The notes beneath the pieces were generated by a model, which worked only from the letters and a program-made list of their open reading frames with translations, was not told where the DNA came from and ran no database searches. 50,024 nucleotides of DNA from the NCBI GenBank assembly GCA_029233965.1, contig JARGOP010000019.1, positions 1-50,024 on the forward strand, given 5' to 3'. Shown piece after piece: positions 1 to 22,899 of this stretch (the stretch's first letter is position 1; each line of letters starts with the position of its first letter). This DNA is from Verrucomicrobiales bacterium. GTDB lineage: Bacteria; Verrucomicrobiota; Verrucomicrobiia; Verrucomicrobiales; DEV007. A program made the translations under genes and the position numbers.

Positions 1-63
1 CCCGCCAGTCCCGCCAGTCCCGCCAGTCCCGCCAGTCCCGCCAGTCCCGCCAGTCCCGCCAGT
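1..63 (-). repeat. Seven tandem 9-bp units coding (Thr-Gly-Gly)n
   Basis: Seven perfect copies of cccgccagt continue to the window edge, so the true copy number is unknown. In the giant gene's frame each unit encodes Thr-Gly-Gly. As a multiple of three, length change would alter the linker without breaking the frame. Confidence 0.95.
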
Positions 64-3000
64 CGGAGGAGCATTCAGCTCGATTGTATCGTAGTAGAAG
101 GCGAATCCGGCAATATTTTGAGGTGCCGGGTCAGTCAAACTACCGTAGTCATGCTCAAGAGGACTGCTTGGATTGGTTCCGGTGATGTGCCGCGTGAATT
201 CGTCATCACGCTGCGTCTCGGAAGGATCCACCGGAGTGTCAATCCAAGCCTGGCCATTGATCATCGCATCAGCTGCCATCTGGTTGTTTGCTCTCGTTGG
301 GAGATAGACCCTGAGATCTTCTTCTCCGTATACCTGGCTTCCTGAATCCACGATAAAATCGCCACCAGCAGGATCAGTTTGCGCGTCACTGCTCACCGTG
401 AGTATCGTGCCGCTTGCAGGATCGACCGGGGTGAGCGCGGAATTAGCGAGATCGTTCACATGACCGACAAGCGCATTCAACAGACGAATATCATCCGTCG
501 CACTGATACTAATATCTCCGTCACGGCTCCCGGTTCCGCCAATTGCAGACAAGCTGCCACGGAGGTCATCTCCATGACCAACTTTCGCATAGGATCCCTG
601 TGTGGGATCATTTCCTGTTATCCGGACACTTCCACCCGTTGTCGTCACCTCAATATCACCTCCGAAAGAGTTACTGACTTGAGCGCCACCATTTCCAATC
701 TGAGCAAAAGAGAATCTTCCCGATCCTGCGCTCACAAAGACATCGTTACCCGCAGAAACCGTCAGATTCCCACTCAGTTCAGCGGCCTGCGCGTTCGCCC
801 CACCGTGACCAATTTGCACGGTTGAAGCATCAGCGTCGCCACCTAACAGGAAGACGCCCGTGACAGCGGATACGCCGACTGATTGATCAATGACATTGCC
901 ATCATACCCGGCTCCACCGTGACCAATCTGCACACTCGAAGACTGCCCCACATCACCGGAAACCATCTCAATAGCTCCGGCGGTGGCAGCAACATTCAAG
1001 ATACCGGACACAGAGCCCCCACCATTCGTTCCACCGTGACCGATCTGTGCAAATGCAGCATCACCGACACCGCCACCCATAATGATCGTTCCGGCACTGA
1101 GCGAAACATCGCCCTGCTTGTCACCGCCAGCATCGACGCCACCGTGACCAAACTGCGCACTTGCGCCGTTCCCACTGCCGGCATCGAAAATGGCCTGGCT
1201 GAAGGATCCCTCCGGAGTAATCGATCCAACCATGATTCCAGTATACCCTGCGCCACCATGACCAATTTGAGCGTAGGCGCTCTGGCCACTCGATCCGGTA
1301 ATCCCAAGACCGCCGGGCTGCAGCTGACGAATACTGATATCGGCGATCACATCTCCTCCCGCGGAGGTGCCCCCTCCGTGCCCTATCTGAGCGAAGCTAT
1401 TTTCTCCGGCTCCGGCGTCAACCGAGATACCCCCTGAGCTTGCAGAAAGATTCAGCGCGCCGGTGATCGCACCGGAGTTATCCCCGTAGAATCCGAGCTG
1501 CGCATAGCTACCATCGGTCGCACCACCGGCAACTGTAATACCGCTTCCCAGCACCTCGGTGACACCCGTCTTAGAGCCGACGCTCACTCCCGACTCCTGC
1601 GTGCCGTCCCCAATCCGCACAATTCCGTTATTCGCGCCGAACTCGGTCGCGGCAACAACTCCGGTAATGGAGATTGGAGCAAAGTTCGGAAGTGAAATAT
1701 TTCCAAGCGCCGGGTTCGACGCGTTGTATGTGCCGGTCATGACAGGCGCAGTTGCCGCCGTCGTTCCCGTGTTTGCCCAACCAGCCAGCAATCCAAGACC
1801 TCCCGACCCGGAATTTTGAAATCCAATAAGGAGAGTGAGATCGCCCCCGCTAAGAAGACTCAGCTGATTCGTTGAGTTGAAAGCCAAGTTGGACAGCGAA
1901 CCGGAACCGATCGTCAGCGACGAAGTTCCACCCGAAGCAATCGTGACGTCCCCCAGGGTAAGGGCAGCACCAATCGTCTCAGCGAGAGTGATGAGAGTTC
2001 CCGCCGCTCCCACACCGGTCTGCTGGCGGAGAGTTGGATCGAGATTGACCCCGGACAACCCGACGATGGAATAGCCGGAGTCTCCTCCATTCGTTCCACC
2101 GGCATAGTTCACCGATCCAGGACCGTCAGCGGTCTGGTGACTGATGAGGGAAGCTCCGGTCGAGCCATCCGTGAGCGAAATCGAGCCGTCGGTGTAGATA
2201 TTGAGGCCTCCGGTTCGTGTTCCGGTCGCATCGCCTGCCGAGGCACCGTGCCCGATCATGGCTCCGCTTCCGTCTCCGGTCAGAGAAATATCACCGCCTG
2301 CGACGATCGAGACACTGCCGTTCAGATCATTCGCCCCCGTACTACTCAGGTAGTGTCCGATCATCGCTTCCGAACCCGGGGAAGCGCCACCGTTGAGCGT
2401 AATCGCGTTGGTCACGTTTGTGGTGACAAATCCGGTGATAATGGCATCCGCCCCCGCATAGCTATTCCCGATCAGGGCAGGATTGCCCCCGGTTCCGGCG
2501 CCGCCATTGAGAGTGAGGGAGTCTCCCCCGACCAGCACATTTCCGGTGATATCACCACCATCCGCATCTGTTCCTCCGCTCCCGATCTGAGCATAGGACC
2601 CGGATGTCGCAGCCCCCGCCGTGAGGACGATATCGCCTGTGCCGGTTACTGCCGTGTTGCTGGTGATGACGCCGTCGGCATCATCGCCTCCGGCACCAAT
2701 CTGCACGTAGCTGTTCAACCCACCACTACTTGCGTCGAGGGTGAGTCCGTTACCGAAAGTGACCGTCGTGTCACCGTTCATGGTCGCCGCATCAGCACCG
2801 CGTCCGCCAATACCAATCTGTGAGAAACTGCCAAAGACGCCGCTATTGCCCCCGGAACCCATCGTGATCGACCCGGTCGCTGCCACCGTGGTGGCCCCGG
2901 CGATCGTGCCGACGAACGGATTGTCCCCGCCGCTGGCTCCACCGCCTGCCCCGATCTGGGTAAAAGCGGAATCTCCGATTCCTCCCGTCATTGTGACGTT

Positions 3001-6000
3001 CGTCGCGGTCACGGACGTGGCGGCATCCGTCAGATCAGCATTGACTGCTGTGTCTCCGATTCCGACGCCGCCCAGACCGATTCTTGCGGACCGATTGCTG
3101 CTGTCGCCACCGGTGAGGATGACATCTCCGGAAGCGGTGACGGTTGTCGTGCCGCTCATGGCGGAGTTATGAAGCGATCCTCCTCCGCCAATCTGCACAT
3201 AAGCCTGCGCGCCGGTTCCGGATGCATCCAGCGTCACGTCACCGGACGCTGCATTCACCGTCACGTTCGACGCAATCGTTCCGGAAGGCTGCTCCACGTC
3301 GGAGTTAGAGGTGATCCCACCCCCGGAGCCAATCTGTGCGTAGGCATCCTGGCCGTCGGAATTCAGCGTCACCGCGTCCCCTTCGACACGGACATCACCG
3401 GATTTGTCACCATCGGTCTCAGCCCCACCGAGGCCGATCTGTGCGTAGGCGCCCTGGCTTGCACCCGCGCTCAGGTTGATCGCTCCGCCGCCCTGCTCTG
3501 TCATCGTAGCAGGATTAAAATTTACATAGGTATTCCCGACCAGAGTTCCATCGAGATCGTAGCCACCAGCCCCGATCTGTGCATACGAGCGGTTACCGTT
3601 TCCGGTGAGACTTACTCCATTGCCGGCAATCACCGTCGTCAGGTTCCCGGCAAGACCGTGCGCCCCGTCCGCGAGATGACCACCGTGACCGATCTGGACG
3701 TAGGCGTCGGAACCGCTACCGGCGTTCATCGAGACCGCTCCTGTCGTTCCGACCACAATCAACCCGCTGGTGTCGCCAGCATTTTCATCACCACCGTGAC
3801 CAATCTGAGAGTAGGCATCGGCGGCTCCATTTCCTCCGTTCATCGCAACCGAGGTGAATCCTCCGATGAGGATGTCTCCGGACTTTGTGTTCGTCTCGGA
3901 GCCACTGTTCGCACCACCGTGTCCAATCTGGGTGTAGGCATTGTTAGAGGCAGCCGAATCCATTGTCAGTGCACCAGTCACTCCGGCGAGCGGACTCTGC
4001 GTCGCTTCGCTGAAGTTGATGTAGAGAGCGGAAGTGAAGACCCCGTCCGCGTCATACCCTCCATGGCCGACCTGAGCGTAGGCGCCGCTTCCTCCTGCGT
4101 TCAGATCGAGGGAATTTGCCTCGAGGCGGATCACGTCGCCGACGACACCGTGATTCCCGTTTGCAAGGTGGCCCCCGTGACCAATCTGAGCGTAGCCATC
4201 CGTGGTCGCTCCACCGGTGACATCGATCTCGCCGCTGCTCACTACCGTGATGTTTCCGTTCGTGTCACCGCCATTCTCGTTTCCTCCATGCCCGATCTGG
4301 GCATACGAATCCGGGCCGGATCCGCCAGTCAGCGTGACCGCCGCCGTTTCGAGGAGAGTGATGTTGCCCGACTTCGCCACCGGCGCACTGAACCCGGCGC
4401 TCCCGGCTCCTCCGTGTCCAATCTGCGCGTAAGCGCGGGTCCCTCCGCCAAGAAGCTCGACATTGGCTGCTTTCCCGATGAGAATATTGCCGGTGATGGT
4501 TCCCTCACGGTCGCGACCACCATGTCCGATCTGGGTGAATGCATCCGTGGAGCCTCCGGTGGAGTTCAGGATGATATTTCCGCTTCCACCGACTACCGCT
4601 CCGACTCCACCATTCGCGTTCGGATCGAAGTTCACGAAGATATTTCCGGAAAGCACCCCGTCGGTGTTGGCATCATCTTCGAACCCACCATGACCGATCT
4701 GAGCATAGGACTCAGGCGTCGTGCCACTGACCAAATCGATGGCATTGGCGAGAACAACAATCGCACCACCCTGGGCGCCTTCAACTTCGTGACCGCCGTG
4801 CCCTACCTGGGCGAAATTCGCGGTAGTGTTCACTCCGCCGCCACCAGCCACCGTGAGGGTGCCATTGCGGGCATCGACGCGAATCGCGCTGTCCGTCGTC
4901 GAAGTCATCTGCGCACCACCATGACCAATCATCGCGTAAGCGTCATCGGTCGTCGTGCTCGCCCCACCGCGCACCGTAACATCTGTCCCTGCCGTGACCT
5001 CGATCGTCGAATTCACGGTTGGGCTGCCGGTGTTGTCCAGGCCGCCATGACCGATCATCGCAAACGAATTGTCTTTTGCGCCTCCCAGAACCTCTACCGA
5101 AGTTCCGGCATTCACGCGAATGAAATCGTCTGCGTCACCGAGATCACCGGCATAAGTGATGCCTCCATGTCCAATCATCGCGAAACCACCGGTTCCGGTT
5201 GTTGAGTCGGAACCAGCGACCCGGATGAAGGTATCAGCTTTGACGTCAATAAAACCAGTCATCTCTCCGTCTGCGCCCGCTCCGCCATTGCCGATCTTGG
5301 CGACTGCATTATCCCCGTTGCCGGCGTCCACGGTGACCGATCCCCCGTTCGAAGTGACAGTGATATTGCTGTCCATATCCCCGTCAGCCCCGTTGCCTCC
5401 CATCCCGATCTGGGCGTAGGCCGTATTTCCATCACCTCCATCGAGGGAGATGTCGCCCCCGGCGGTGACCGACACATCACTCACGTGATTGTTGGAGGGA
5501 TTCCCCTGGCCGCCCGCTCCAATCTGCACATAAGAGCGCGTTGCCGCGCCGGCATTCATGTCGATGGCCCCGGCGACAGTCACGACCGTGTCACTGAGAG
5601 TGATCAAGCCGCCACTCGCGTGGCCTCCGTTTCCAATGAACACGAAGGCGTCCGCTGTCGTAGCTGAGTCTCCTCCGGTCATCGTCAAGCCACCGCCGGA
5701 GCTGGTCACACTCACCTGTCCCTGCTTCGTGCCACTTCCCCCGTTTCCGCCAAGGCCGATCATGGAGAACGCGTTCTCGCCAAGTCCACCCGTCATGAGG
5801 ATGTCGCCGCCCGTAGCAACAGTGACGGCACCGAACAGATTCCCTTCCGGCACAGCTCCTCCGAGACCGATCTGGGCAAAGGAGTCCTCGCCTCCTCCCG
5901 CAGTGAGAGTGATGTCACGGGAGGCCGTGATGTCGATATTCGCCGTCATCACTCCACTCACGGCGCGTCCACCGTGACCGATTAAGGCATGGCTTTGGGT

Positions 6001-9000
6001 GCTGCCTCCACCTTCGAGAGTGATGTCGCGGAAGTTGGTCAAAGTAATGTTGCCCGAAGCATCGGCATCGGCATCACTGCCGCCGTGACCGATCTGGAGG
6101 AAATTTCCAGTTCCTGTGCCGGCAGCATCGCTGAGGAGAGAGACGTCGCCCTGATCCGCCAGTGCCGCAGCTCCGGTCAGCGTGATCAACCCCGACTTCG
6201 TTCCGTCATCGTTCGTGCCGCCATGGCCAATCTGAGCAAAAGCTCCGGTTTGACCGGCAGGTGTCGCCGTGAGGGTGACATTGGAAACGTTCAAGAGCGA
6301 GATGTTACCACCTCGAGTGCCCGTCCCATTGGAGATCCCGTGACCGATCTGAGCGTACGATCCGTTTGCTCCGGCCAACTGCCCGCCGCTCAAGGTGACT
6401 CCGGCCGGCTCGCAGAAAGAGATGTAGATTTCCGCGTCGACGTTGATTCCGGTAGTCGATCCCGCTCCGCCATGACCGATTTGGGTAAAGGCACCTGCTG
6501 CGTCCCCGCTGTTCAAGGTCAGCCCGCCTGCACGCGCCTGGACATCGATGCTCGGACGGTAATTGATCGGCCCGGGACCGGTGATGTCACTCGCCGGGTT
6601 GTGGAAACCGATCTGGGTAAAAGCATTGGCTGTCGTATCGCTGGAGATCAGCTCGATTTCATAGCCGCGAAGAACGGTGGACCCACTTTGTGATCCCACC
6701 ATGACGGCTTGCGTCTGCGATGCATTACCGATCGTCAGTTTACCCTGGGTGTGAATCGAGCTGGACGTATCCGCGAAGGTATTTCCCCAGGCGTCCTTGT
6801 CATCGAAATCAATCGCACCCGGCGTGATGTTCGGGTCACAAGCCCCGTTGTTGAAGTCAATCGTGGAAGCGTCCTGGACTCCGTTCCAACCGGCGACAAG
6901 AGCGATGAGACCGTTACCCGCATTCTGGACACTCCGGTTGAAGTTGATGTTACCTGTGGCGAGGACCACGAAGCTGAAGCTGTCGTTTGTGAACTGATCG
7001 CCGGAGTTGGCAGGAATCCCCACTTCGACGTCCGCCCCGGTATTGTCAGTGATAAAGATATCCCCCGTTCCGGCGATACCGTTGACGATGACGCCCTGAT
7101 TTTCACGGGAACCGGAAGCCGCATCGTTTCCGATCGTCGAACCGTTCACGATGTAGCGGTAGCTGTCGCCACCAAGGTAGGTGGAGTCGCTGAGCCCCCC
7201 ACCGGTGTTAGTACGGTGAATCAGATGAACGTTTGAGTTCGCCCCTGTTCCGGAGTTCAGAACCGCATCGCCATCGACAAAATACTGAAGGCCACCCTCC
7301 CGGGTCCCGCCTGAGATGCCGCTGCCAAAGTTCCCATAGGCCCCGAATCCATCCCCGTGTCCTGCCATGACGTAGCTGCCGTCGCCGGCGCCGCCGGTCA
7401 TGACAAGGTCACCTCCGTTGTTCGCGACGACAAAGATATCTCCGGCGAGATCCATGTTTCTACCCGTCACCCCGGCGCCATGCCCAATCTGGACGAACCT
7501 TCCATTCGTGTCGCCACCGAGCATCGTGACTCCGCCCGCGTTGGTAAACCCGGAGACCACCGTGACATCACCGGCATGATTGCCATCGGCATTCTGACCG
7601 CCGTGACCGATCTGCACATACGCGTTGGTCCCTGCAGAATCGTTCGCCGCCGCATCCAGCGTCCAGGTTCCGCCGACGTGCACGCAAATATCGCCGAGTT
7701 GATTGACGACCCGGGCGTTGGTCCCGCCGTGACCGATCTGGGAATAGGCATTATTCCCGTTTCCGGAAACGAGGCTTCCGTTTCCGGCGATGGAAATATC
7801 GATCGCAGAGCTGGTCACCGAAGTGCCGCTGGCCGTTGCGGTATTCACGCCTCCATGACCAATCTGGGCAGAGGCGGAAGATCCGCCGGCGGTCAGACTG
7901 AGGGAGCCGCTGTTGCTCGTGATACTGATCGTTCCGTCATTCAGTCCGGCGCCGGAATCAGCGTCGTTACCACCGTGACCGATCTGGGTGTATGCCCTCA
8001 CAGCATTGCCGGAGGCCAGGGTGATGTCATTTTCCGTCGAAAGAACAACGTCGCCGCTGAGGGAACCTTTCGCGAGTCGTCCTCCGTGGCCCAGTTGCGC
8101 ATAGGAATCGGTATTTCCAGTCAGTGTCTGAAGTTCAAACGCTCCGGTCGATCTCAGAGTGATTGCTCCTTCATGATCGCCACTCGTCCGAATGCCACCG
8201 TGCCCAATCTGAGTGTAGCTGCTGCCCGCCGTGCCCGCCCGAAAATTGGCATCCGCCCCGGCATTCAGTAGCGTCGTGCCATCCGCTGCATATCCGGCAA
8301 AGACCTGGATCGCTCCAGCGGAACCCAAAGCGGTCGTTACCGGCGTATTGAGATGAAAGCCCGCCGATCCGGAAGGTTCCGCCGCCGGAACAATTGACGG
8401 ATCGAAGGAGGCGTCAATCCCGCCGTGGCCAATCTGGGCGTAGGAGTTGGCCCCACCGCCTGCAAAGTTCACCCCGGTGGCTCCGGAAACAGTGATCGCA
8501 TTTTCCAGCCCGCCGGAGCCGTTGGCGTCGAAAAGACCGTGGTTCCCCATCGATCCGGAACCGCCGTGTCCAATCTGAGCAAAGGCATTGCCGGCCGTGC
8601 CTGCGGTGAACTGGATCGCGCCATTTGTTGAGGTCACGTCAATACTCCCTTCATGACCTTCGTCCGCGATCGCTGCGCTGCGGAAACCGCCGTGCCCGAG
8701 CTGCGCATATCCGACACTACCGCCGTTCCCACCTGTGAAGGAGATATCCAATCCTGCGGTAACGGCGATGTTGCCCGAGAGCGTGCCCGGATAATAGCGA
8801 TCATTGATATTATTCCCCGGCGTAGCTCCGGTTCCACTCTGACGATAGTCATTGCGTCCCCCGTGACCGAGTTGAGCGAAGCTGCTCCCGTTCGCCCCAC
8901 TCGTGAAGCGAATCTCGCCGCCGACACCGGCCGTGACGTCAATGTCACCCGTGTGCGAACCGGAAGCGAAGAAACCGCCGTGACCAAGCATAACGTAGCG

Positions 9001-15000: not shown

Positions 15001-18000
15001 ATCGATGTCACCGGCGGCACTCACGAAAATGTCCGACCGGATTTCACCATCCGAATAGAAACCACCATGACCGATCTGGGCATAGGTGTTGTTGCCACTG
15101 CCTGAAAATCCGGCATTGCTCCCGTGGAGATCCACATCCGCATTGAAGATGATGCTTCCGACCGTAGCCTTCACGTCGATCTTTCCGTCATGATCCCCGG
15201 CCACTTCATAGCCACCGTGTCCGATTTTCGCGAACGTGCTGTGTGCATTTCCGCCCGTGAAGGTAATATCCCCCCCTGTCGCGAGCACCGTGACATCTCC
15301 GCTGAAGCCATCATAGAGAGGGACTCCCTGGCCAAGAGCCGGGTCGACCGAGTTGTCGATAGGCCAGAAAGGGAATCCCGTTCCGTCGAGATTCGAGGGC
15401 TGGTTAAAATCATCGGCATGAGTCATCGTGCCCGTCACGATGTTGCTCCGATATTGGCGGTAGGAAAAATATCCCCCGTGTCCAATCTGGGCGAAATTGT
15501 AGGAACCGGCATTGTCAGACTCACCGTCCTCCCTCTCGGCATCGAGAACCGCTCCGCTGAACGAAATACCGTTTCCGGCAGTGACGTTGATCTCACCCGT
15601 CTTGTCTCCATAGACGAACGTTCCGCCATGACCGATCATCGTGAAGTTTTCGTCGGCGCGCGCCCGGTTGCGATGATTTTCATCCTGGTTGTTGGGCCGA
15701 TTCAGGGTGTAGACATGAGCGGCGTAAGGAACCGCCGAGCCAAGATTGTTCTTGGGTGTTCCATGAAAATCAATCAGTCCTCCTGCGGTGACGTTGATGT
15801 GTTCGCCGATCCGACCGAGGTTACCGGTCATCCCGTGGCCACCATGGCCGATCATCGAATAGGCCCGGTGATCCACGTTGTTGCCGTCATAGGTCTGGCC
15901 ACCACCAACGAATTCAATATTTCCATTGATTGACTCGACATCAATATTCCCATGGTGATTTCCGTTTGTGTTGAGACCGCCGTGACCAATCTGGGTGAAG
16001 TGACCGTAGCCGCGGCCGCCGCCGGCCTCAAAATTGATGTCCCCGTCATTCGCCTGCACAAAAATATCCCCGTTGTGCCCTTCGCGGGTCGAGAGGGGAT
16101 CGTTGCTGTTGTTGTCGAGACTGCCGTCTGCATCTGAATTGACACCACCATGACCGATCATCGCGTAGTTGTAATCCATATAGAGGATTCCCCGGTTGTC
16201 GGTTCCTCCGGGCACACCGGCAACTCTCACATTGTTAGCGCTGGCAGGCTGACTTGGATCGTAGTTCCACGCAACCGTGAAATCATCCTGAAGCGTGTCC
16301 CCGCCCTTGAAGCGAATGCCGCCGTCGGCTCTCACGTCGATCGTTCCGGCGTAGAACCCGTCGGTCGGGGCGATGCTCGACACGCCACCGTGACCGATTT
16401 GAATAAAGTTTCGTCGGTCATTGCCCGCGAGTCCGGTGATGGTTCCCCCGGTTCCAGTGTAGTCGCCCTGGGCGTCAACGCCCGCGCGAACCTCGATATT
16501 CCCACTGTGCCCGCGCTGATCAGCTGCACCGGTTTCGGGGTGCGTATTCGTCAGCGGGGTGGCATCCAATCCGCCGTGACCAATTTGAGCGAAAGAGTTG
16601 ATCGCATCATTGCTGATATGGGTCGTCGTGTTGTAATTCACGAAGAGGTCAGCCTCGTCTCCCGCGTTGACGATGACAGCCGTGTTCCAGGTGATTTCGC
16701 TCGTCGCGTAGTCAATCGTTCCCACGACGTCGCCGGCAACCGCCTGTCCATTGGCCAGATCGACCTGCACGACGAGATTTCCGGTACCGTTTCCATTATC
16801 CACATCGATGATATCAGCGGGAGCGCTGCCGTCGTAGGCATGGGTTGCATCCGCAATCCGGAACTCAACGCTTCCCGCCGTGACATCGTCGCTCATGAAG
16901 CGGGTTTTCTGCCCGTTACCGACTCCGGCCGCCTCGTCCATCATGACGTAGCCCGGTCCATCCTCCGTATTGCCCCAATAGACATTAAACTCGGAGATAT
17001 CGTTGTTGTTCCCCCCGTTCGCTCCACTCATATCCTGGAACTCTGCGATGCGGGTCACTTCGCGCTGCAGGGCAACGCCGCCCATCAAATTGATGTCGTT
17101 ACCGGCATACACCTTGATATCGCCGAGGAAGGTTCCGTCGGTTTCCCGGCCTCCGAGACCGATCTTGGCCGAGTTACTCTGGCCACCACCGGCAACCAGA
17201 TTGACATTTCCATTGGCTCCCAGCGCCATCACTTCGATGGATTCATCACTGCGCCCGAGGTGTCCGTTGGGACCTCCATCCTGATACTGGTAGGTGTGAC
17301 CGATCTGAGCAAAATTGGAAAGGCGGGAGTCGTTATCGTCGGAATACATCCCGCCACCGACATTGACACTGCCGTTCTGCGTCACGACGGAAATACTTCC
17401 ATGGTGATCACCGCTCGTGGTGATGCCTCCATGACCAAGCATGGCCGAATGGAAGCGCCCGACCCCGTCGCCGTGACTGACAAGCACATCCGACCCGGTG
17501 ATCGGCCCGATATTGCCCTCGGGATCGAGTCGGTCCGCCAGAGCAATGTTGTTGCCCGCCATGAAGCTGATGTCACCCTCTGTCGTGTTGAGCACGATAT
17601 CACCGAAATGCCCCCAACGACCGGCCCCCACTCCGGCTTCACCGGCAGTCGTATCACCAATCGAAGTCCGGCTGAAAAGAGCATTTGTCACCCCGAAATT
17701 GTTATTGTTGCTCTGCTCCGGATCGGCGTCCCAGCCGCCGTGGCCGAGCTGGGCGTAGTTCCGGAAATCATCGCGCCACGCGTCATTGTTTCGGATTCCG
17801 GTTCCGGCAACAAAAGCGATGTCCCCCTTTGTCTGGATCACAATATCGCCGTTCAAGCCGAACGACTGCGAACCATCGGCGGTATCTTCACCCGAGCGTG
17901 AGCTGCGACCGCCATGACCGAGCTGAGTGTAGTTGTCCTGATTCGTTCCCGCCTTGAAGAGAACGCCGAAGCCATCCGTATCATTCTTCCCGTTCGTGAT

Positions 18001-21000
18001 CGTGATGTCCCCGTAGTGATTGCCGTTCGCGGCATAACCACCGTGGCCGAGCTGGGCATACGCTTGATAATCGCGGTGCCGCGCGCCGTTTACACCGGCC
18101 AGCATCTCCAGTTTGCCGCCGTCGGCCCCTGCGACGATATCAATAGTGATATCCCCAGAATGCGCCCCTTTGGTTTCGTGGCCACCATGACCGATCTGGG
18201 CATAGGCACGATAAAAGGCCCCTGCATGAACCCGGAGATCATCTGCCAGCGTGATCGAAATATCCCCGGAGTTTCCTCCGCTGGTGCGGTTGTTATTAGG
18301 ACCTTCAGACTCGTGTCCCCCGTGCCCCAGCTGGGCATAGGCACGTTCCTTGTAGCCCTTCACCGAATCGTATTCCACTGTCGTGACCGTACCGGCGACA
18401 ACCGTGTTGAAGCGAACGATGCCACGTCGATAATCGACATCCCCCACCGTGTTTCCGTTCTGGTCCACGAGAATACTGCCATCGTCCGTTAGATTCGGGT
18501 TCGAGCCTCCGTTGTTGTCCGTGTCCTGTTCATCGTTATCGGCATCGGGAAGATCCGTGATAACGACCGTCCCACCCGCTCCATCGTCCATCACGATCCT
18601 GAGCGAACCCGGCGCGACATTAACGGGCCCGTTCGAAACGGCGAATTCCGTCGCGACCGTTGCGGCCGTATCAGTCCGGGGGGAGAGTGAGGTCCAGAAA
18701 TTTGCCCCGGCTCCAATCGCGTTTTGCACGGAACTCAAGTCGTCCGTATCCGCAGAGAAGCTCTGTGAGGTGATGGTATTGTTGACTGAACCGATCATGT
18801 CCAGTCCGCCGTACGAAGTGATCGTGATATCACCACTATGCCGCCCCCGGGCCGCGTAGCCTCCGTTACCGATGTGAATGTAGGACTCCGCCCCGCCCTC
18901 AAGAGCAAGAACCGTTGTGGTATTTGAGACTCCATCAAAGCTGCGACTTTGACGCACGTAACGGGTCCCACCTTCGATACTACCATCGAAGACAATACCT
19001 CCGCCGTTTGAAGCGATCGTTATATCGCCCGAGAACCCGTTGTCATCATTGGCACCGTTCGAACGCCCTCCGTGACCAATCTGCGCAAAATCGCGGTTCT
19101 GATTCCCGGAGATGAAGGTGATTCCACCGGTAGAGACATCGTTGTCGATGTTCTGAAGATCCCCGGTTCCGGAGGTGATCGTGATGTCGTGACTGTTCGC
19201 CATGATCCCGTCCGCATCATTCCCGCCGTGACCGATCATGACATAACGATCTTCCACATTGTAGTATCCGTTTCTCGTCGCCCCATTATTGAGATCATTA
19301 AACCAGAGATTCGCATAAGCCGTCACTCCGAGCGCGTCAGCCGAACCGGATGCCCCGGACTCAAAGTGAATATCACCGAAGGCTGTGACCGTGATTTCCG
19401 AGTCATTATCATTTCCGGCAAGCGCCCCCCTCGTGGCCCCGTAGTTCCCGTTGGAGGAATATCCTCCATGGCCGATTTGCGCAAAGCTCTCATAGTGTTT
19501 TCCGGCGAAGAAACGGATATCCCCGTCGGTGGCACCGGCACCCTGGCCTGCCTCCACCGTAACCAGACCGCCCTTGGCACCTTCCGCATCACGCCCGCCA
19601 TGACCGATCATGGCGTGGTTGCGACCGTAGCCCCAGTCGCGGTTGGAAGCCTTGTCGGCACCACCGGCAAAAAGAATATCCCCCTGGGTTGCTTTGACAC
19701 TGATATCCCCCTGATACCCCTCTCCACCGAGAGCACGCTGGTTCGCACCACCGTGTCCAATCTGGGCATAACTGTAGAGCTGGTTGCCGGCGCGGACTCC
19801 GATTCCCACTTTCGAACCGGCATCATTCGGATCGACGTAAGTTCCATTGGCGAGCACGATGACATTTCCAATCGAGCTATTTTCCCCGCGGATTCCCGTG
19901 ATGTTAAAGCTGCCCGCACCGCCTGAAAAGGTCCCGTTGTTCGCGGGAGCATCCGCTTGCGCTCCTCCATGACCGATCTGCACATGAGAATATTGATCAG
20001 CGCGGTTGTCGGTCTGGGTGTAACCCTGCATGCGGATCGCACCGGTTTCCGCAGTCACCGTTATGTCACCACTGCGCTGCATGTCAAAAATAGAACGGGG
20101 ATTCCCCTCGCGCGTGTGGCCATGACCAATCTGAACAAACCGGGTGTCAGAGCGCCCCCCGATCATGTCGATGCCAATACCGGCAAGTCTCGCCAGCCCT
20201 GCGGTGTCGGCCTCGCCACTTCCAACGGCGCCTTCCGCGATGACGGTGACGTCTCCGTGATAGCTACCGGGGTTCTCCGCTCCACCATGACCGATCATGG
20301 CATAGTTTCCGGCCCCGGCGTTGGTGTTCGCGACATTATTCGGGTCAGTCGTGATCCCCGGAGCCGCCAACATCTCAATGTCACCGGCAGCCTGAATCGT
20401 GATGTCCCCTTCCACCCGGAAAAGACTTCCATTCAGTGGATCAGCTTCCGTGTTCGTCTTCCAGGTCGTGCCAAAGAAGGTGCGGGCATTGGTCGTATCG
20501 AGAACATACCCATCACGGGTCGTTCTGGTCTCCCCGGTCGACACGGCCCTTTGCTCAAACCCTTCCTGACCGCTGCCGCCGTGACCGATCTGGACATAAC
20601 TGCGGGTCGTTCCGGCCTGCATATCGAGTCGACCGCTGAGACGGGCCGTGATGTCACCTTTGGCTCCGCTTCCCGCTCCCGCGAAGGATCCGACACCTGC
20701 GGTGCTGTCCGGCGTGCCTCCAAGAAGAGCAATGTAGTCCTTCCCGGTCACCGCATCAGTCCCCGTAAACCCGGTCCCGCTCCCGTCGGCTGCCGAGAAA
20801 CTTCCCCACCACTCGTTGTGGAGACCATTATTGATGCCGTTTCCAACCCCGTTGCCGTTGCTGTCCTGGTTCGTGTCCGAAATCTGATATTCCGTTCCAT
20901 TGTCTGCAAAACCAAGCTGGACGTAGGCTTCGTTCGTGTTGCCATCGGCCTGCATGATCAAATCATGAGCCGCCAGAAGAGTGTGCCCGAAGCGGGAACC

Positions 21001-22899
21001 CACATTGATCTGCACATTCGCGTTATTGTTTCCGATGAGGACAGATCCGCTATTCTGTCCCGCCGCATCAGGATTGCCCTCACTGGCTCCACCCGGCATG
21101 GTGTCGAGGACCGCCGCCATGTTGAAAGCGCCCGGAGTCGTCTCAGCGTTTGCACTGAGAGGATCGACAATGCCGGTGATCCCGTCCCAGCCGGCGACAA
21201 TATTGATTCCACCTTCGCCCGCACTGCGGACTGCGTCGTTGATGATCACATCCCCCATCGCAAGAAGAGACAGCGTTCCGCCGGACGTGCCGGGCGCATC
21301 CTGATACCACTCCACCCGATCATTAACCGTGATGTTGCCACGCGGCCCTGCGAGGCCGAAGTTACTCGTGATGATCACATTGGTTCCCGCATCCAGCGTG
21401 TTGGAAAGATCAACATTGTTCACATTATCAACGCCGACAGCAGCAGAGGAAATCGTGATATTGGTCGGATCAAGCAGAAGCGTGCCGCTCAATCCGTGAT
21501 CCGAGCTCAGATCCACCATTCCCCGATAACCCAGCGTCTCCTTTCCGGAAACCTCCGCAAAACCTCCGTTTCCGACAATACCGGCACCACGAGCCGAAAT
21601 CGACCCCGCGAAATCGGTGGTTTCATCCGACCACAAGATAATGACGCCACCATTTCCGGCATCGGTCGCGTCCGCGGAAAAGGCCGCCCCGTCCAAAACC
21701 GTGAGACTGTTCGCATTATCGATATCCGCATTCCGCCCCTGAAAGCCTCCCCCGATCTGCACACTGCCACCACCGGTGCCGCCTGAGGCATTGAAACTGG
21801 CCGTTTCTGTCACGAGAATATCCCGCGCCTCGACCACGACATCCCCGCCACCTGCAGTGGCTGAACTCACGTCAATGCCGCCGGAAATCAATGCTTCGCG
21901 AGACGCAGCAACCTCCACTCTCCCCTGCTCTGCAGCGATCATACCATCGACCCGTGCATAGGCCGCCTCAATGAGAACGCGTCCACTGCTTCCGATTCCG
22001 GGTCCACTGGCCTGGATCGATCCGGAGTTACTTACCCAACCGTCAGTTCCCTTGAGAAAGACACGCCCCCCGGATGTCGCTGCTCCCGTGGCACGAACCG
22101 ACCCCTTGTTGTTGATCGCAAGCGCATACATGTTCCCATGCGCCTTCAGTTCGATCGCGGCTCCCTCAATCGTTCCGTCGTTGAGAACCCCGGTTCCGCT
22201 GGCGCCGGCACCGGTTGCGCGGATAAACATGCGCTCTCCCAGGGCATTCGACTCCGCTTTGAGTAAAATTTCCTCTCCGGCACCCATGCCTACGGTTCCT
22301 GAAGCCTTGATTGAACCGGTGTTGGTCACCGTTTTTCCGATCAGGAAAACATCACCCCCGATTGCATTGATGCGCCCCATGTTGGTGACCCCTTCCCCAT
22401 TTCCATTCCCTTTGAAGACCATATCTCCGCCGGCCAGAAATTCCCCGTTGTTGATATCCAGCGTTGAAAGCACCAACCCGTGCACGTCGATCGTTCCACT
22501 CGCCCCCACGAGGATCCCGTTCGGGTTGATCACGAAAACACTTCCGTTCGCCTGCAGCGCCCCGTGAATTTCACTCGGGTTTCCTCCTGTCACCCGGTTG
22601 AGCACGGCCGCATTGATTCCCGGTTGGTTGAACTGCGTCAATTCCCCGGCGTCGATTGAAAAGTCGTCCCAATTGATAATCGCGTTCAGCGAACTCTGAT
22701 TGATCTGGAGATTCCCGCCTGTTCCGGCTCCGATACTGACATCACCATGAACCACCACGCCTCCGCTTGGGTTCGCTTGAATCGGAACCGCAAAAAACGT
22801 CAACCCCGGAGTGAGGCAGGCGACAACAAAAGCCTGGAAGCGCATTGAAGCACGCCAGCGCGAACACAGATATCTCTTCTGAGTACAAGGTTTTCTCAT
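1..22899 (-). CDS. Giant filamentous-haemagglutinin-like TPS exoprotein with GHGG repeats (3' end outside window)
   Basis: One uninterrupted minus-strand frame runs from an ATG at 22899 to the window edge: 7,633 codons without a stop. Residues 1-42 form an extended signal peptide with a basic start, a hydrophobic core near residues 21-40 and a likely cut after IQA. Residues 43 to about 300 match the haemagglutination-activity/TPS domain, with the NPNGI motif at 125-129. The remainder is Gly/Asp/Thr-rich alternating beta sequence dominated by a module containing [YF]xQ[IL]GHGG followed by GDIxVxA- and GxIxFxAG-like strands, as expected for a long right-handed beta-helix. TPS-family proteins cross the outer membrane through a TpsB partner; none is encoded in this window. 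The start is fixed by the signal peptide, but no Shine-Dalgarno is evident. A sulfatase gene lies upstream on the same strand. The role (adhesion, biofilm or predation defence) is inferred from the family. The C-terminus, and so the anchoring or release mechanism, is unseen. Confidence 0.93.
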   Translation of the reverse strand, partial: MRKPCTQKRYLCSRWRASMRFQAFVVACLTPGLTFFAVPIQANPSGGVVVHGDVSIGAGTGGNLQINQSSLNAIINWDDFSIDAGELTQFNQPGINAAVLNRVTGGNPSEIHGALQANGSVFVINPNGILVGASGTIDVHGLVLSTLDINNGEFLAGGDMVFKGNGNGEGVTNMGRINAIGGDVFLIGKTVTNTGSIKASGTVGMGAGEEILLKAESNALGERMFIRATGAGASGTGVLNDGTIEGAAIELKAHGNMYALAINNKGSVRATGAATSGGRVFLKGTDGWVSNSGSIQASGPGIGSSGRVLIEAAYARVDGMIAAEQGRVEVAASREALISGGIDVSSATAGGGDVVVEARDILVTETASFNASGGTGGGSVQIGGGFQGRNADIDNANSLTVLDGAAFSADATDAGNGGVIILWSDETTDFAGSISARGAGIVGNGGFAEVSGKETLGYRGMVDLSSDHGLSGTLLLDPTNITISSAAVGVDNVNNVDLSNTLDAGTNVIITSNFGLAGPRGNITVNDRVEWYQDAPGTSGGTLSLLAMGDVIINDAVRSAGEGGINIVAGWDGITGIVDPLSANAETTPGAFNMAAVLDTMPGGASEGNPDAAGQNSGSVLIGNNNANVQINVGSRFGHTLLAAHDLIMQADGNTNEAYVQLGFADNGTEYQISDTNQDSNGNGVGNGINNGLHNEWWGSFSAADGSGTGFTGTDAVTGKDYIALLGGTPDSTAGVGSFAGAGSGAKGDITARLSGRLDMQAGTTRSYVQIGHGGSGQEGFEQRAVSTGETRTTRDGYVLDTTNARTFFGTTWKTNTEADPLNGSLFRVEGDITIQAAGDIEMLAAPGITTDPNNVANTNAGAGNYAMIGHGGAENPGSYHGDVTVIAEGAVGSGEADTAGLARLAGIGIDMIGGRSDTRFVQIGHGHTREGNPRSIFDMQRSGDITVTAETGAIRMQGYTQTDNRADQYSHVQIGHGGAQADAPANNGTFSGGAGSFNITGIRGENSSIGNVIVLANGTYVDPNDAGSKVGIGVRAGNQLYSYAQIGHGGANQRALGGEGYQGDISVKATQGDILFAGGADKASNRDWGYGRNHAMIGHGGRDAEGAKGGLVTVEAGQGAGATDGDIRFFAGKHYESFAQIGHGGYSSNGNYGATRGALAGNDNDSEITVTAFGDIHFESGASGSADALGVTAYANLWFNDLNNGATRNGYYNVEDRYVMIGHGGNDADGIMANSHDITITSGTGDLQNIDNDVSTGGITFISGNQNRDFAQIGHGGRSNGANDDNGFSGDITIASNGGGIVFDGSIEGGTRYVRQSRSFDGVSNTTTVLALEGGAESYIHIGNGGYAARGRHSGDITITSYGGLDMIGSVNNTITSQSFSADTDDLSSVQNAIGAGANFWTSLSPRTDTAATVATEFAVSNGPVNVAPGSLRIVMDDGAGGTVVITDLPDADNDEQDTDNNGGSNPNLTDDGSILVDQNGNTVGDVDYRRGIVRFNTVVAGTVTTVEYDSVKGYKERAYAQLGHGGHESEGPNNNRTSGGNSGDISITLADDLRVHAGAFYRAYAQIGHGGHETKGAHSGDITIDIVAGADGGKLEMLAGVNGARHRDYQAYAQLGHGGYAANGNHYGDITITNGKNDTDGFGVLFKAGTNQDNYTQLGHGGRSSRSGEDTADGSQSFGLNGDIVIQTKGDIAFVAGTGIRNNDAWRDDFRNYAQLGHGGWDADPEQSNNNNFGVTNALFSRTSIGDTTAGEAGVGAGRWGHFGDIVLNTTEGDISFMAGNNIALADRLDPEGNIGPITGSDVLVSHGDGVGRFHSAMLGHGGITTSGDHHGSISVVTQNGSVNVGGGMYSDDNDSRLSNFAQIGHTYQYQDGGPNGHLGRSDESIEVMALGANGNVNLVAGGGQSNSAKIGLGGRETDGTFLGDIKVYAGNDINLMGGVALQREVTRIAEFQDMSGANGGNNNDISEFNVYWGNTEDGPGYVMMDEAAGVGNGQKTRFMSDDVTAGSVEFRIADATHAYDGSAPADIIDVDNGNGTGNLVVQVDLANGQAVAGDVVGTIDYATSEITWNTAVIVNAGDEADLFVNYNTTTHISNDAINSFAQIGHGGLDATPLTNTHPETGAADQRGHSGNIEVRAGVDAQGDYTGTGGTITGLAGNDRRNFIQIGHGGVSSIAPTDGFYAGTIDVRADGGIRFKGGDTLQDDFTVAWNYDPSQPASANNVRVAGVPGGTDNRGILYMDYNYAMIGHGGVNSDADGSLDNNSNDPLSTREGHNGDIFVQANDGDINFEAGGGRGYGHFTQIGHGGLNTNGNHHGNIDVESINGNIEFVGGGQTYDGNNVDHRAYSMIGHGGHGMTGNLGRIGEHINVTAGGLIDFHGTPKNNLGSAVPYAAHVYTLNRPNNQDENHRNRARADENFTMIGHGGTFVYGDKTGEINVTAGNGISFSGAVLDAEREDGESDNAGSYNFAQIGHGGYFSYRQYRSNIVTGTMTHADDFNQPSNLDGTGFPFWPIDNSVDPALGQGVPLYDGFSGDVTVLATGGDITFTGGNAHSTFAKIGHGGYEVAGDHDGKIDVKATVGSIIFNADVDLHGSNAGFSGSGNNTYAQIGHGGFYSDGEIRSDIFVSAAGDIDFDGGDSNSFAQIGHGGFADGGTRTDRWGGSNAAHRRSNDRGYRPATRSGNIDVQSGGDILFNAGNNDGDLGFAQIGHGGRQVAANPWASAYGDGHSGNIDVSATGEILFEGGSRRGDYIMIGHGGYETFGNHGGDGSDNRLNSDILVEAGDGVTFKATGISNTNTARNFAQIGHGGWRSSFRDVQDMDGNLFAILGGYDNGGLVANNAGRNPWEPYTTNPDGLALDFLTGRPINEVVPGTENFITPTGTSTVGPATLGTFMGNITVRTTNAGGDIRMLAPSEAEGTIYGNAGESYAQIGHGGFRTFGDVVGNITVESAGGIDFNAVQGDGTRTANHGAAYALLGHGGYESGGEYNGDIIVSSVDTISFVGGNSVDGANVGFVQLGHGGYNSDDDHGQYNEAVRDADGNQKTSDDDLGNSGNITVTVTAGDLEFLAGKDSDTYAQLGHGGRSTRDTHSGDITVNVDGGIRFIAGVDASAGNTNPGGNERSYVQLGHGGNDSDGSHSGDIAVTAGSFAAGPESGKGIVFRSGDHLNNSSQIGHGGHGTRTYGTVAQGGEGFEGSITILADGDIHFAAGSYFKNGNPFDVGNEAQNYTQIGHGGYNADAYKDPDRVLAVGLEGHSGDISVVTTSGDISFLASQSGFEATPGDGGGSYHYAQIGHGGANAQGDHHGNIEVRAGIDGNGNVLDANSRILFAGGGGTLDDWADNNNYAQLGHGGRMDGNAASSAGNFGLATEVISVSSGGDITFTTAGGVNNYVQLGNGGYNARGNHSGDIQVLANGSVLIEGSQMKADGSTGSYTAAYAFTRPSTDGNSFRNLDRAGEFEATAAGAARAAGEADFNFNQVQTGTLRVIIRDDSNNIVMTLHDPNNNGNLVVETVDAGITNVDPVAVGDTVGSYTASRIQFTQDVNPGANAYGGTSNIGVVYESTMTDRAYAMVGHGGYDADLPNNDPADRAYVGDISIVARTGDVTINSGHDDDTFAMVGHGSRGTRGLIGGSGVDESANIFIRAGGAFAANAGDGARANARVGHGGYDSEGDKSGHIMVSAGSGALFTSLGTGIFNDVFDFDLDGTKDNVTFTTLDPTLGTISLNGGSGREDSEVHIGHGGNRSQGVGSDLYTGDIGVSATGDITLLGGVGTRRFAQIGHGGWDDASDVNNTRAVDTVGDVSVISEGGDMSLKAGGWNSYALIGHGSDDNNNRDNLGGKREGRIFALADTITLDRNGNRTAWIGHEFERTDDVQNPFGAANISMSNLEVGSSYVPLGHQVIARDGLISANNGTANTNNNITITDTFRDTFIRPNMAFGDFAYSAGNITVNSLLNGATLFDATNRSNNFSLLASGNIAVNFSIQNPGSGDVNLIAGTQFGSDFFSGAGGIIDFPSIGTDDFQQIDHLFGPPVGSLNMAAVSAAGSLGFNGSSVIIDATPRAIAVGSRDGTTTVSGSSVEVLGGNGFNEYAQIGFRSVNAVDDLGDADLAGSATGDVTVHAADGGVRVEAGAGLRAIAQIGHGGDDSTLGAANDPADPSHSGNISVDASFGAGGNVTVLAGNANQQWAMIGHGGRSIAAGHSGAIGVRGADITLAGGGTDVAHVDSSAQIGHSGRASSGDSSGAITVAATGNLAVRSGDGLRAVSMIGHGGRSAPGNHEGEIRITAGGTFDLIAGGEEDAFAQVGHGGYASRGDQNGNIFILAGGDITAESGDGSRAYVQIGQGGYDADSPNNDGAGTPGVVGEIEVASTGGSISFTGGNGVNAYAQLGHGGISNQGDHSGTIAVRARENLSFVSGNGNNGYSQLGHGGNGAAGNHSGSIYASAGTSGNFFFGLNFVSFGTPTTTGAISFTAGNAINAYTQLGHGGNGARGDHGLATEVIDVRAASGISFSGGSGLLETQNQRIAYAMLGHGGHDADNPNPGNYADNTAGTPGFPTPAERVGNTADITVVTATGDISFAAGSQDRNFAQLGHGGHSTAGDHTGTISVDATEGAIRFESLLDGVDVDLATGADNPDERYVMLGHGGFFASGSHTGDIDVTAGVGGEIRFTSGANGSSFAQLGHGGRNDYRQSGTGATPGNNINDRYYPGTLSGNIAVTAGLDISFTGGNGGSVGYAQLGHGGFRSAAIADEGHEGSIDVTSTNGAIQFTAGTAGNAFAQIGHGGSGSMGNHGLFDANGSGGLENAITVSGATGVNFAGGGANSYAQIGHGGIDASFDPSIVPAAEPSGSAGFHLNTPVTTALGSAGAIQVFAGYAADGTTLLNAGADANFRAGTAGSSYTQIGHGGIRTSGDHEGAITLRSTGAFELQTLTGNTDSYAQLGHGGRLAKGSLSGDVVLSTENDITLASGNAVRAYTQIGHGGNDADSGAGLNDGTISITSNSGSLSLTAGGSSASAQIGHGGVNTATASGTSVTSSAIDISIAGNGSLVSGNGNNAYSQIGHGGTNARVVNQLGDICVHVGGTWTLDAAANDSAGTNAYVQIGHGGQNADGNHAGDVTVVSGFTNAGGVTMLGGDTNGRFVQIGHGAGVTGRNMDLAGDIFVVANNGGDLVMTGGAGDGSYVMAGHGDGFGAYGNFGSGISGGTREGGLQYFVDGDAVLNSGTGANSNVHLIHRTNTGGGLSDSTYLGGDSYRYIVNGSTIGNDAASGSRENQGVIVNGIAGTGDIFITDNTGADVEVGIPANSGDQFTNDSFSFVVLATGNINFNRSVQNAGNGLIALVAGWNGVQDASTIDFNNGACDPNITPGAIDFDDKDAWGNTFADTSSSIHTQGKLTIGNASQTQAVMVGSQSGSTVLRGYEIELISSDTTANAFTQIGFHNPASDITGPGPINYRPSIDVQARAGGLTLNSGDAAGAFTQIGHGGAGSTTGINVDAEIYISFCEPAGVTLSGGQLAGANGSYAQIGHGISNGTGTRGGNISLLNVSNVTLTATPAGQTGAFAQIGHGGTNDDGTKSGLITLTGAAALADQGDVSLLSDAAGTGTGNFLQIGHGGSDADADASGNITLTNFRDITLEGGGSTQSHALIGHGGRAVSGVMTANIDITASRDITLTAGGGEDSFAQIGLGGAVPEGNLFGAVTVATGGDILMTGGLGENAFSMIGLGGNGGSGTKQGQVSVTSSGGGLTMTGGDSATTADAFVFIGNGGHASGGLITLSDTVVTVAGAIDMNAGAATRSYVQIGAGGQGNPSNNHVSDVSVTAGGDISLDGGDGNTAYAQIGMGGNGADGDMDSNITVTSNGGSVTVDAGNGDNAVAKIGNGGAGADGEMTGFIDVKADTFIRVAGSDSTTGTGGFAMIGHGGITYAGDLGDADDFIRVNAGTSVEVLGGAKDNSFAMIGHGGLDNTGSPTVNSTIEVTAGTDVTVRGGASTTTDDAYAMIGHGGAQMTSTTDSAIRVDARNGTLTVAGGGGVNTTANFAQVGHGGHEVEGAQGGAIVVLANAIDLVSGTTPESYAQIGHGGFEDDANTDGVLSGNIFVNFDPNANGGVGAVVGGSGNIILNSTGGSTDAFTQIGHGGRDREGTITGNILIGKAANVELLGGGTRAYAQIGHGGAGSAGFSAPVAKSGNITLLETAAVTLTGGSGPDSYAQIGHGGNENGGDTNGNITVVSSGEIDVTGGATTDGYAQIGHGGHLANGNHGVVGDVIRLEANSLDLNAGGSGAYAQVGHGGYDADGVFTSALYINFSEATQSPLAGVTGALTMDSAASNNAYTQIGHGGANSGSETNTKSGDILIGGFTSVAMNGGNGAADAYSQIGHGGDENAGDTSGLIVVGTTGAVSMNAGSGSDAYVQIGHGGHLADGAHGLAGNLTTVIAGNGVSLTGNGNRSYAQIGAGGYDLDGTLVGNTYVNFNPATMTEQGGGAINLSAGASQGAYAQIGLGGAETDGDKSGDVRVEGDAVTLNSDGQDAYAQIGSGGGITSNSDVEQPSGTIASNVTVNAASGDVTLDASGTGAQAYVQIGGGGSLHNSAMSGTTTVTASGDVILTGGDSSNRSARIGLGGVGIGDTAVNADLTDAATSVTATNVTMTGGIGDSAFTQIGAGGGASGGDNPFVGTIAGATTVAATGSITMGSGGNSGVFGSFSQIGIGGRGADAATMNGDTTVTFGNGLTLDASSGGLNSYVQIGAGGDDADGVITSNTAVTGTGDIVLTAGAATSGSYAQIGSGGTDADGGDITGNVLVGGDSLTLNGGAGTGGNPALIGNSYAGADAIITGFVTTNVTNAITLNGGASPGSEAMIGHYLSSTGANDLNGSVSIVAGGDISLTGDGSGAMIGHGASAGDATGTRTGGLNIYTDGSISLTDGSTGASLISHQTADGPGSVNYAGGTNGGDSGYSIVGLSGVNLDPTLRQQTGVGAAGTLITLAETIGAALTLGDVTIASGGTSSLTIGSGSLSNLAFNSTNQLSLLSGGDLTLLIGFQNSGSGGLGLLAGWANTGTTAATAPVMTGTYNASNPALGNISLPNFAPISITGVVAATEFGANNGIVRIGDGTQESGVSVGSKTGVTEVLGSGITVAGGATDGSYAQLGFYGDNSGAITGALNLSASSGGISVDAGAGENSFAQIGHGGGTSAGGDVIADISIRQLQPGGLGITGSSGQSAYAQIGHGGAGYTGIMVGSITPEGSFSQAIFDAGSGNGASAQFGHGGVDAGGDKQGDVSLSAGTIIMGGGVGDAAFAQIGHGGTNGGGSVSGILNVAATAGAIEMVSGDVGQSSSVQIGHGGAGYDGNVIDQSVGVSAVTGVFLLGGDADASTVQIGHGGANAQAAELSGNLTVSAGNDVFVSAGSGRFSFAQIGNGGAQVSNSFGGDIEVTTTGGSVRITGNDPTQGSYAKVGHGDDLRGSLSAIGGTGSRDGDISISATDDIRLLNALVGHVNDLANSALTPVDPASGTILTVSSDAQTDPAGGDFIVDSGSQVYGEEDLRVYLPTRANNQMAADAMINGQAWIDTPVDPSETQRDDEFTRHITGTNPSSPLEHDYGSLTDPAPQNIAGFAFYYDTIELNAPPTGGTGGTGGTGGTGGTGGTGG
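540..6640 (-). repeat. GHGG repeat array, block 3 (most C-terminal in window)
   Basis: About 48 copies by eye, with the most regular spacing of the three blocks at roughly 110-130 bp (about 39 residues). Many copies between about 2.5 and 3.6 kb and between 5.3 and 5.9 kb replace the His of GHGG with Ala, Ser, Ile or Leu, giving cores such as YAQIGSGG, VQIGAGG and ARIGLGG. The last copies near 590 and 690 are degenerate (VGHGD, IGNGG). A non-repetitive C-terminal stretch follows. Confidence 0.88.
6601..7081 (-). repeat. Type A module, copy 3 (heads GHGG block 3)
   Basis: Contains GDIFITDNTG, LATGNINFNRSVQNAG, ALVAGWNGVQD, a VGSQSG segment and the terminal FTQIGF. Most similar to copy 1 at the VAGW(D/N)G core. 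Confidence 0.7.
7300..10650 (-). repeat. GHGG repeat array, block 2
   Basis: Same module as block 1, with copies near 10485, 10335, 9995, 9745, 9630, 9135, 8985, 8690, 8425, 7975, 7730 and 7485. The period is mostly 110-180 bp. The block is bounded by type A modules: one on its N-terminal side at 10621-11160, and the one that starts block 3 at 6601-7081. Confidence 0.88.
10621..11160 (-). repeat. Type A module, copy 2 (heads GHGG block 2)
   Basis: Contains NITITDTFRD, SLLASGNIAVNFSIQN, GSGDVNLIAG, a VGSRDG segment and the terminal YAQIGF, in the same order as copies 1 and 3. The Gly-Trp-Asp-Gly of copy 1 is replaced here by a GTQFG segment. Confidence 0.65.
12241..12490 (-). repeat. Type B module, copy 3
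   Basis: Segment with TGTLRVIIRDD, LHDPNNNGNLVVETVD, VGDTVGSYTASRIQFTQDV. It is the most divergent of the three copies: the DY of the other two is replaced by SY. Confidence 0.45.
16621..16900 (-). repeat. Type B module, copy 2
   Basis: Segment with AGSVEFRIAD, DVDNGNGTGNLVV, VVGTIDYATSEITWNT and VNAGDEADLFVNY. It has the same motif order as the copies at 18361 and 12241. Confidence 0.55.
18361..18660 (-). repeat. Type B module, copy 1 (inserted in block 1)
   Basis: Segment with FAVSNGPV, APGSLRIVMDDG, VITDLPDAD, an Asn/Asp-rich stretch, then VGDVDY and IVRFNTVVAG. The order, a PGSL strand, an Asp/Asn-rich loop and a G-x-(V/I)DY-x-x-x-I-x-(F/W)N strand, is shared with two other places in block 1. 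It looks like a small beta-sandwich insert; the fold is inferred. Confidence 0.55.
20890..21345 (-). repeat. Type A module, copy 1 (heads GHGG block 1)
   Basis: Protein segment running from GNITVND through a strand ending LLAMGDV, then SAGEGGINIVAGWDG, an Asn/Ala-rich loop, a VGSRFG segment, and ending YVQLGF. It differs from the GHGG module and recurs at 10621-11160 and 6601-7081 with the same order of motifs. Confidence 0.7.
22000..22773 (-). other. TPS / haemagglutination-activity domain of the giant protein
   Basis: Residues 43 to about 300 begin directly after the predicted signal peptide. The segment has the typical order of the FHA secretion domain: a GDVSIG-like first strand, an INWDDFSI strand, a VLNRVTGGNPSEIHG segment, then FVINPNGILVG at about 122-132. 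In this family the domain is recognised by POTRA domains of a TpsB transporter and nucleates the beta-helix. The far boundary is estimated. Confidence 0.85.

Follow-up and report, generated by a model that had tools for sequence, protein, structure and literature searches.

A giant gene of the TpsA type occupies the minus strand of positions 1-22899 of the window, the 50,024-nt stretch of Verrucomicrobiales DNA that was analyzed here, and very probably runs on into a second contig of the same assembly. Its product is supported at the sequence level as a TpsA exoprotein with a TPS secretion domain, and most likely is a long surface adhesin fiber. Taken as a whole, the best explanation, to which we assign a probability of roughly 0.7, is a giant TpsA protein made of solenoid arrays that would be exported in trans and act as an adhesin or scaffold fiber at the cell. 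The secretion route and the fold class are already known, and the repeat itself is new to Pfam-A, NCBIfam and the literature that we searched.

Extent of the giant frame and the contig junction

The frame comprises 7,633 stop-free codons (residues 1-7633) from an ATG at 22899 down to base 1. Within this interval, the five remaining frames contain 202, 328, 45, 323 and 367 stops. The probability of 7,633 codons without a stop, computed from the base composition at 58% G+C, is about 10^-116, and base composition differs between the codon positions of the frame as in coding DNA. Upstream of 22899 the frame stays open for 19 further codons (7,652 codons in total), and the ATG at 22899 is the putative start. 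The preliminary description of this DNA had proposed a giant (>7,633-residue) TPS exoprotein gene filling nearly half of the window; the stop-free frame, its TPS domain (see below) and the occupied share of 46% bear out both statements. On the plus strand opposite the gene, the longest open frame within window positions 1-22899 measures 793 codons between stops, and such antisense frames are probably a mechanical result of the codon usage of the giant gene.

That the frame meets no stop in the window is due to the assembly, which is cut at window base 1, where contig G000:C77 starts. This contig begins inside a run of a 9-base unit, (ACTGGCGGG)n at 1..64, which codes for a Gly-Gly-Thr linker on the minus strand. 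When three copies of the unit were used as a query with up to 3 mismatches, it was present in this genome only at the start of C77 and at the end of C40, a contig of 16,959 bases whose terminal 9-base repeat carries the same frame on, along the minus strand, to a stop at C40:16508-16510. The part after the linker is an acidic tail of 129 residues. We compared both sides of the junction with a profile built on the C-terminal 260 residues of 15 proteins from relatives, chosen from 41 C-termini by a D/E-D...W-x-R motif. The region ahead of the linker (residues 7449-7613, 61..555) matched this profile with an E-value of 2.5e-54. The C40 tail, which itself does not have the motif, scored 6e-11 (search set of 1,003 sequences), and none of 1,000 shuffled versions of it did better than 0.8. 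In many relatives, too, the two C-terminal pieces are separated by a linker that varies in length and is rich in Gly, Pro or Ser. Since the C40 tail resembles the C-termini of the relatives, the gene would span the two contigs, and the stop expected to the left of the contig, for which the preliminary description had advised a search, was located on C40. The gene is thus very probably complete, with 7,633 residues, the linker and 129 residues. The protein would have a mass of ~775 kDa including the signal peptide (linker copies between the two contigs not counted) and a pI of 4.4, being acidic, Gly-rich and nearly Cys-free.

Domain anatomy, the YAQIGHGG repeat and its predicted fold

All features described here lie on the minus strand. 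A putative signal peptide covers about residues 1-43 (...PIQA/NPSGG, 22771..22899) and is followed by the TPS secretion domain (22012..22779) with its NPNG motif at residue 125. The domain matched PF05860 with an E-value of 2.8e-32 (113.1 bits against a cut-off of 33.5) and NCBIfam TIGR01901, and gave PDB sequence matches to EtpA (8cpk, 5e-38), HMW1 and HxuA. Both elements had been described as intact from the letters; for the TPS domain this is upheld by the family match, and for the signal peptide it rests on inspection by eye. A Pfam search of residues 1-966 returned the TPS domain only, and residues 967-1966 returned no match.

The rest of the window part consists of four modules, in each of which an opening segment is followed by a repeat array. 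The opening segments lie at residues 456-660 (20920..21534), 3881-4110 (10570..11259), 5196-5450 (6550..7314) and 6886-7140 (1480..2244), and are mutually homologous by pairwise BLAST (E-values of 4e-9 to 4e-18, composition correction off). Array 1 spans about residues 767-3815 (11455..20601) and has many long loops, array 2 about residues 4134-5173 (7381..10500), array 3 about residues 5451-6879 (2263..6549) with mostly tightly spaced units, and array 4 about residues 7132-7473 (481..1506). At least three loops, all in array 1, hold an inserted domain of ~110 residues, at residues 1406-1516 (18352..18684), 1986-2093 (16621..16944) and 3455-3565 (12205..12537). The copies align at 24-27% identity and are probably related; a profile built from the three of them also found the domain in relatives (L102, 3e-25; L026, 4e-13). 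No Pfam family reached its gathering score with the inserted domain (DUF4140 came closest, at 0.039), and the best PDB sequence match of the domain was at 0.11. The second copy was predicted by AlphaFold2 to be all-beta (pLDDT 75, pTM 0.70), and this model gave no Foldseek match below 0.001. Its best structural neighbors, phage capsid and tail proteins with Z-scores of at most 6.6 (9ukm, rmsd 4.1, 96 aligned), lie in a range that the tool describes as common and do not identify the domain.

A profile built from 50 clean units of the giant protein found 113 repeat units at i-E <1e-3, 109 of them over 8 bits, giving about 110 in all. The core of the unit is [AS]-[YF]-A-Q-[IL]-G-H-G-G, and the commonest spacing is 37 residues (median 46 in the giant protein and 43 in relatives). 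The repeat had no match in NCBIfam, individual Pfam families each matched at most 1 of the 23 repeat segments searched (best E-value 0.0027), and no paper on the YAQIGHGG repeat was found in the openly licensed PMC literature, so that the architecture which the preliminary description did not recognize is indeed unfamiliar to these resources. The core histidine, which would fall at the same turn of each coil, is kept in 81% of 100 anchored units of the giant protein and in 78% of 2,729 units of relatives, where asparagine is its commonest substitute (12%), which fits a hydrogen-bonding ladder better than metal binding.

We modeled a segment of seven units from array 2 (7384-8220) with AlphaFold2 on an alignment of 22 homologous rows. 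The model (pLDDT 91, pTM 0.92) has three strands per unit, and the repeat segment is thereby modeled as a beta-solenoid. Foldseek gave no match to the PDB at E <0.001. VIA-align placed beta-helix proteins at the top. They include the TpsA hemolysin HpmA (5keh; Z 10.5, rmsd 3.7, 161 aligned) and an adhesin, SRRP (5ny0; Z 11.2, rmsd 3.5, 187 aligned); unrelated beta-helices score only slightly lower. The tool itself rates Z-scores of 10-11 as middling where repeat folds are concerned, and Foldseek returned no match, so the alignment supports the fold class only. Within that limit, and handedness aside, the imperfect repeats that form a right-handed beta-helix in TpsA proteins are found here as well, as indicated by the 113 units, the AlphaFold2 model and VIA-align. 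The repeat profile had also matched designed 'Cake' proteins (6tjg, E 8e-9), which we take to be propellers; this match rests on a similar period and glycines, and a beta-propeller was set aside in view of the alignment of the AlphaFold2 model with beta-helix proteins.

In the VIA-align results, the seven units of the model (residues 2-275) match residues 132-270 of 3p4g (Z 8.2, rmsd 2.4, 138 aligned), an antifreeze protein with presumably about 19 residues per coil. The matched stretch would then hold about seven coils for seven units, which suggests one coil per unit. A beta-helix rises by about 0.48 nm per coil; at this value the arrays alone would extend over ~53 nm, and with the other parts the fiber would perhaps reach 50-90 nm.

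Distribution, conservation and the candidate TpsB partner

The repeat profile matched 28 of 56 related genomes, namely 27 of the 33 genomes of the genus (its own included) and 1 of the 23 outside it. In a phylum-wide sample, with at most 8 candidates scored per genome, the repeat was found in 1 of 387 genomes, its own. A scan of the genome_contigs collection with a peptide pattern gave 221 stretches, 177 of which were confirmed, and the best 80 of these 177 fell into 55 loci; 49 of the 55 are labeled Verrucomicrobiota at some rank. The other six carry the labels Gammaproteobacteria, Alphaproteobacteria, Roseibium, OCS116, Anaerolineae and Theseobacter exili (one each), labels that may reflect MAG contamination. 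When three of these six were searched with Pfam, two had a TPS domain (L031, L052) and L037 had none at E 0.01, despite an N-terminus that looks TPS-like by eye. L037 (labeled Alphaproteobacteria) and L056 (labeled Anaerolineae) have a nearly identical C-terminus, for which gene transfer or a binning error is possible. A repeat segment (window:9640-10233) had no plasmid or phage match at E 1e-3, and spread of the repeat on mobile DNA was rejected on this ground; the TPS region matched 172 plasmid records, all below 60% identity.

Some relatives carry several giants per genome. Among the matches listed, their open frames reach 8,899 (G026), 8,293, 8,173, 8,043 and 7,923 codons, so the present gene is not the largest. 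A repeat that has no Pfam-A or NCBIfam model thus builds frames of up to 8,899 codons within one Verrucomicrobiales genus, and the giants are not unique to the present genome, recurring through the genus and staying collinear between species. The closest copy compared (G023) is 59% identical over residues 31-2337 and is split into two frames, the second of which matches on from residue 2332; the collinear copies in G025 and G026 are 45% identical over residues 492-5497 and 44% identical over residues 540-5644, respectively. Over the 2,230 codons of the closest comparison, the proportion of differing bases is 0.28 at first, 0.24 at second and 0.63 at third codon positions; differences are biased to the third position, and the frame has therefore been kept as a protein. 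No dN/dS value is given, as dS lay outside the range of the correction for 8 of the 11 comparisons and exceeded 2 for the remaining three. Conservation outside the units compared with that of the units minus the core motif was 0.55 vs 0.62 in the closest comparison and 0.46 vs 0.51 for G025, and residues outside the units were gapped more often (220 vs 105 gapped residues, G025). The loops are conserved nearly as well as the units and are therefore not mere slippage debris.

The preliminary description had also called for a search for a TpsB gene. This search was successful for the genome, which has four ShlB matches (on C113, on C11, on C135 and in a fragment at the start of C10), but not for the neighborhood of the giant gene, as neither C77 nor C40 has an ShlB match. 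A TpsB is therefore encoded somewhere in the genome and not in the same operon. The proteins on C11 and C135 adjoin shorter TpsA genes. The C113 protein (621 aa, ShlB and POTRA_2, C113:142456-144318) is encoded on a contig with no TPS match. At 60% identity or more, 31 of the 33 genus genomes have an orthologue of it, full-length in 26 and partial or split in 5; the genomes without one are G003 (53% complete) and G032. Among the matches listed, all 19 of the 19 repeat-bearing frames of at least 4,000 codons lie on contigs without an ShlB match. A tree of the TPS domains, with a bootstrap that is not settled and 11 of its 22 inner branches open, gives short branches to most of the unlinked giants and places the TpsB-linked paralogues of the present genome at a distance; the long repeat proteins L044 and L040 group with the linked paralogues, and the row of L037 (branch length 10, mis-extracted) was disregarded. 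We infer that the unlinked C113-type TpsB is the likely exporter of the giants in trans, as a best guess from these sequence comparisons. G032 contains three giant frames (6,478, 6,371 and 5,761 codons) and its best match to the C113 TpsB is at most 41% identical; therefore, either its assembly lacks that TpsB or another TpsB serves. The C113-type TpsB also occurs in 5 of the 6 repeat-less genus genomes (2 full-length, 3 partial or split), and is therefore not dedicated to the giants. According to PMC5422565, an operon is the usual and not an obligatory arrangement of TpsA and TpsB genes, and secretion of more than one TpsA by the same TpsB also occurs. These findings raise the question of how several fibers of this size could leave the cell by way of an unlinked TpsB.

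The TpsA paralogues on C135 and C11 have TPS regions 49-52% identical to that of the giant protein, whereas they are far shorter and adjoin a TpsB. At 190-15321 of C135 (L020, minus strand), two TpsA genes (1,827 and 2,376 aa), which share the repeat with 14 and 11 units, are followed by a TpsB frame of 899 aa; the open frame of the C11 paralogue is 1,723 aa. TpsB frames of 840-867 aa and TpsA frames of ~2,000-2,400 aa likewise share a contig in G007, G012, G015, G025 and G026. On C10, where no TpsA was found, the C-terminal fragment of the fourth TpsB lies near the contig start (L022, 358-981, plus strand). A TPS fragment at G000:C81:31105-31806 (L002, L024) is 58% identical to the N-terminus of the giant protein and contains one stop, and by its sequence is a decayed TpsA copy.

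Proposed mechanism and alternative readings

In the mechanism that we propose, Sec would carry the protein across the inner membrane, and an unlinked TpsB, for which the C113:142456-144318 protein is the best candidate, would recognize the TPS domain. The chain would then fold one coil after another while emerging at the cell surface, with the whole array probably forming one long solenoid. The finished fiber, of some 50-90 nm, would present its loops to other cells, surfaces or polysaccharides and would act as an adhesin or scaffold, the C-terminal region presumably holding it at the cell. An adhesion or scaffold role is favored by the type of protein and by the conservation of its loops, and also because no enzyme or toxin domain was found in residues 1-1966, the repeat segments, the inserts or the tail, which were the parts scanned. 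Which surface such fibers grip, in a lineage of which the named relatives are mostly environmental genomes, is a further question. A bolder version, in which a distinct beta-solenoid carries a histidine ladder tens of nanometers long that binds a ligand or metal or stiffens the fiber, and one orphan TpsB of the genus core exports several unlinked giants, strikes us as improbable.

HMW1/HxuA-type TpsA proteins are anchored by a Cys pair near the C-terminus. This anchor is not present in the giant protein, which has no Cys in its 129-residue tail and whose last Cys in the window part is residue 5496. In common with the TpsA adhesins FHA, HMW1 and EtpA, it has an N-terminal TPS domain with the NPNG motif and long imperfect repeats that form a beta-helix with projecting loops (PMC5422565 and PMC10284417 for the adhesins), as modeled here. 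It differs from them in its own unit of ~37 residues with the YAQIGHGG core and in having no TpsB beside the gene. PMC5422565 gives a length of 500 angstrom for FHA and masses of ~100-650 kDa for TpsA proteins, compared with ~775 kDa here.

Instead of an anchored adhesin, the product might be a released matrix or coat protein, such as a biofilm matrix or a shell fiber. The acidic pI of 4.4, the high glycine and near absence of cysteine, the sheer size, the Cys-free C-terminal tail and the presence of several giants in some relatives all agree with release, but the conserved C-terminal tail suggests some step of retention or processing, and we regard release as possible but doubtful. Giant size also calls to mind the very large predicted proteins of Omnitrophota and other PVC lineages (PMC12057145, PMC11573180), for which a role in predation or cell-wall attack has been proposed in the former. 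In contrast to those, the present protein is a TPS exoprotein mainly of one repeat, with no enzyme or binding domain in residues 1-1966, the inserts and the repeat segments, so a gene of that kind is very unlikely.

CdiA-type contact-dependent inhibition, in which a TpsA stick carries a C-terminal toxin with the immunity gene downstream, would agree with a TPS domain in so large an exoprotein, CdiA proteins having 180-650 kDa according to PMC5422565. However, VENN is absent from both the window part and the tail (some CdiA proteins use other motifs, according to the same text), the C-terminal region and the tail are common to relatives, and a Pfam search of the tail at E 1 returned no family. 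Where the immunity gene would be expected on C40, there is a convergent gene, a frame of 186 aa that ends 13 bases from the stop of the giant gene and reads like a methyltransferase by eye; frames opposite it, on the strand of the giant gene, are of at most 63 aa. Together these points make contact-dependent inhibition very unlikely as well. As for the frame itself, the short tandem repeat at the contig end resembles the kind of site where short-read assemblies break, which would be in keeping with repeats mis-joined into one frame. However, the units have diverged in DNA (the best ungapped pair is 62% identical over 108 nt, with means of 0.41 for neighboring and 0.40 for distant units), and collinear relatives exist in three other genomes. 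The frameshift or misassembly that had been named beforehand as the finding that would overturn the gene is hence unlikely, notwithstanding the split copy in G023, and an assembly artefact is the least probable of the readings considered.

No Rfam family was found in the window. A frame at window 46720-47982 (minus strand) has a PilN match just above the cut-off and adjoins two frames without a Pfam match, and this region is possibly a cluster for assembling a type IV pilus or a type II secretion system. A sulfatase gene (window 23173-24846, minus strand) is the direct upstream neighbor of the giant gene on the same strand, and three frames near the C81 TPS fragment (L024) are also sulfatase-like by eye; the sulfatase genes suggest a life on sulfated polysaccharides.
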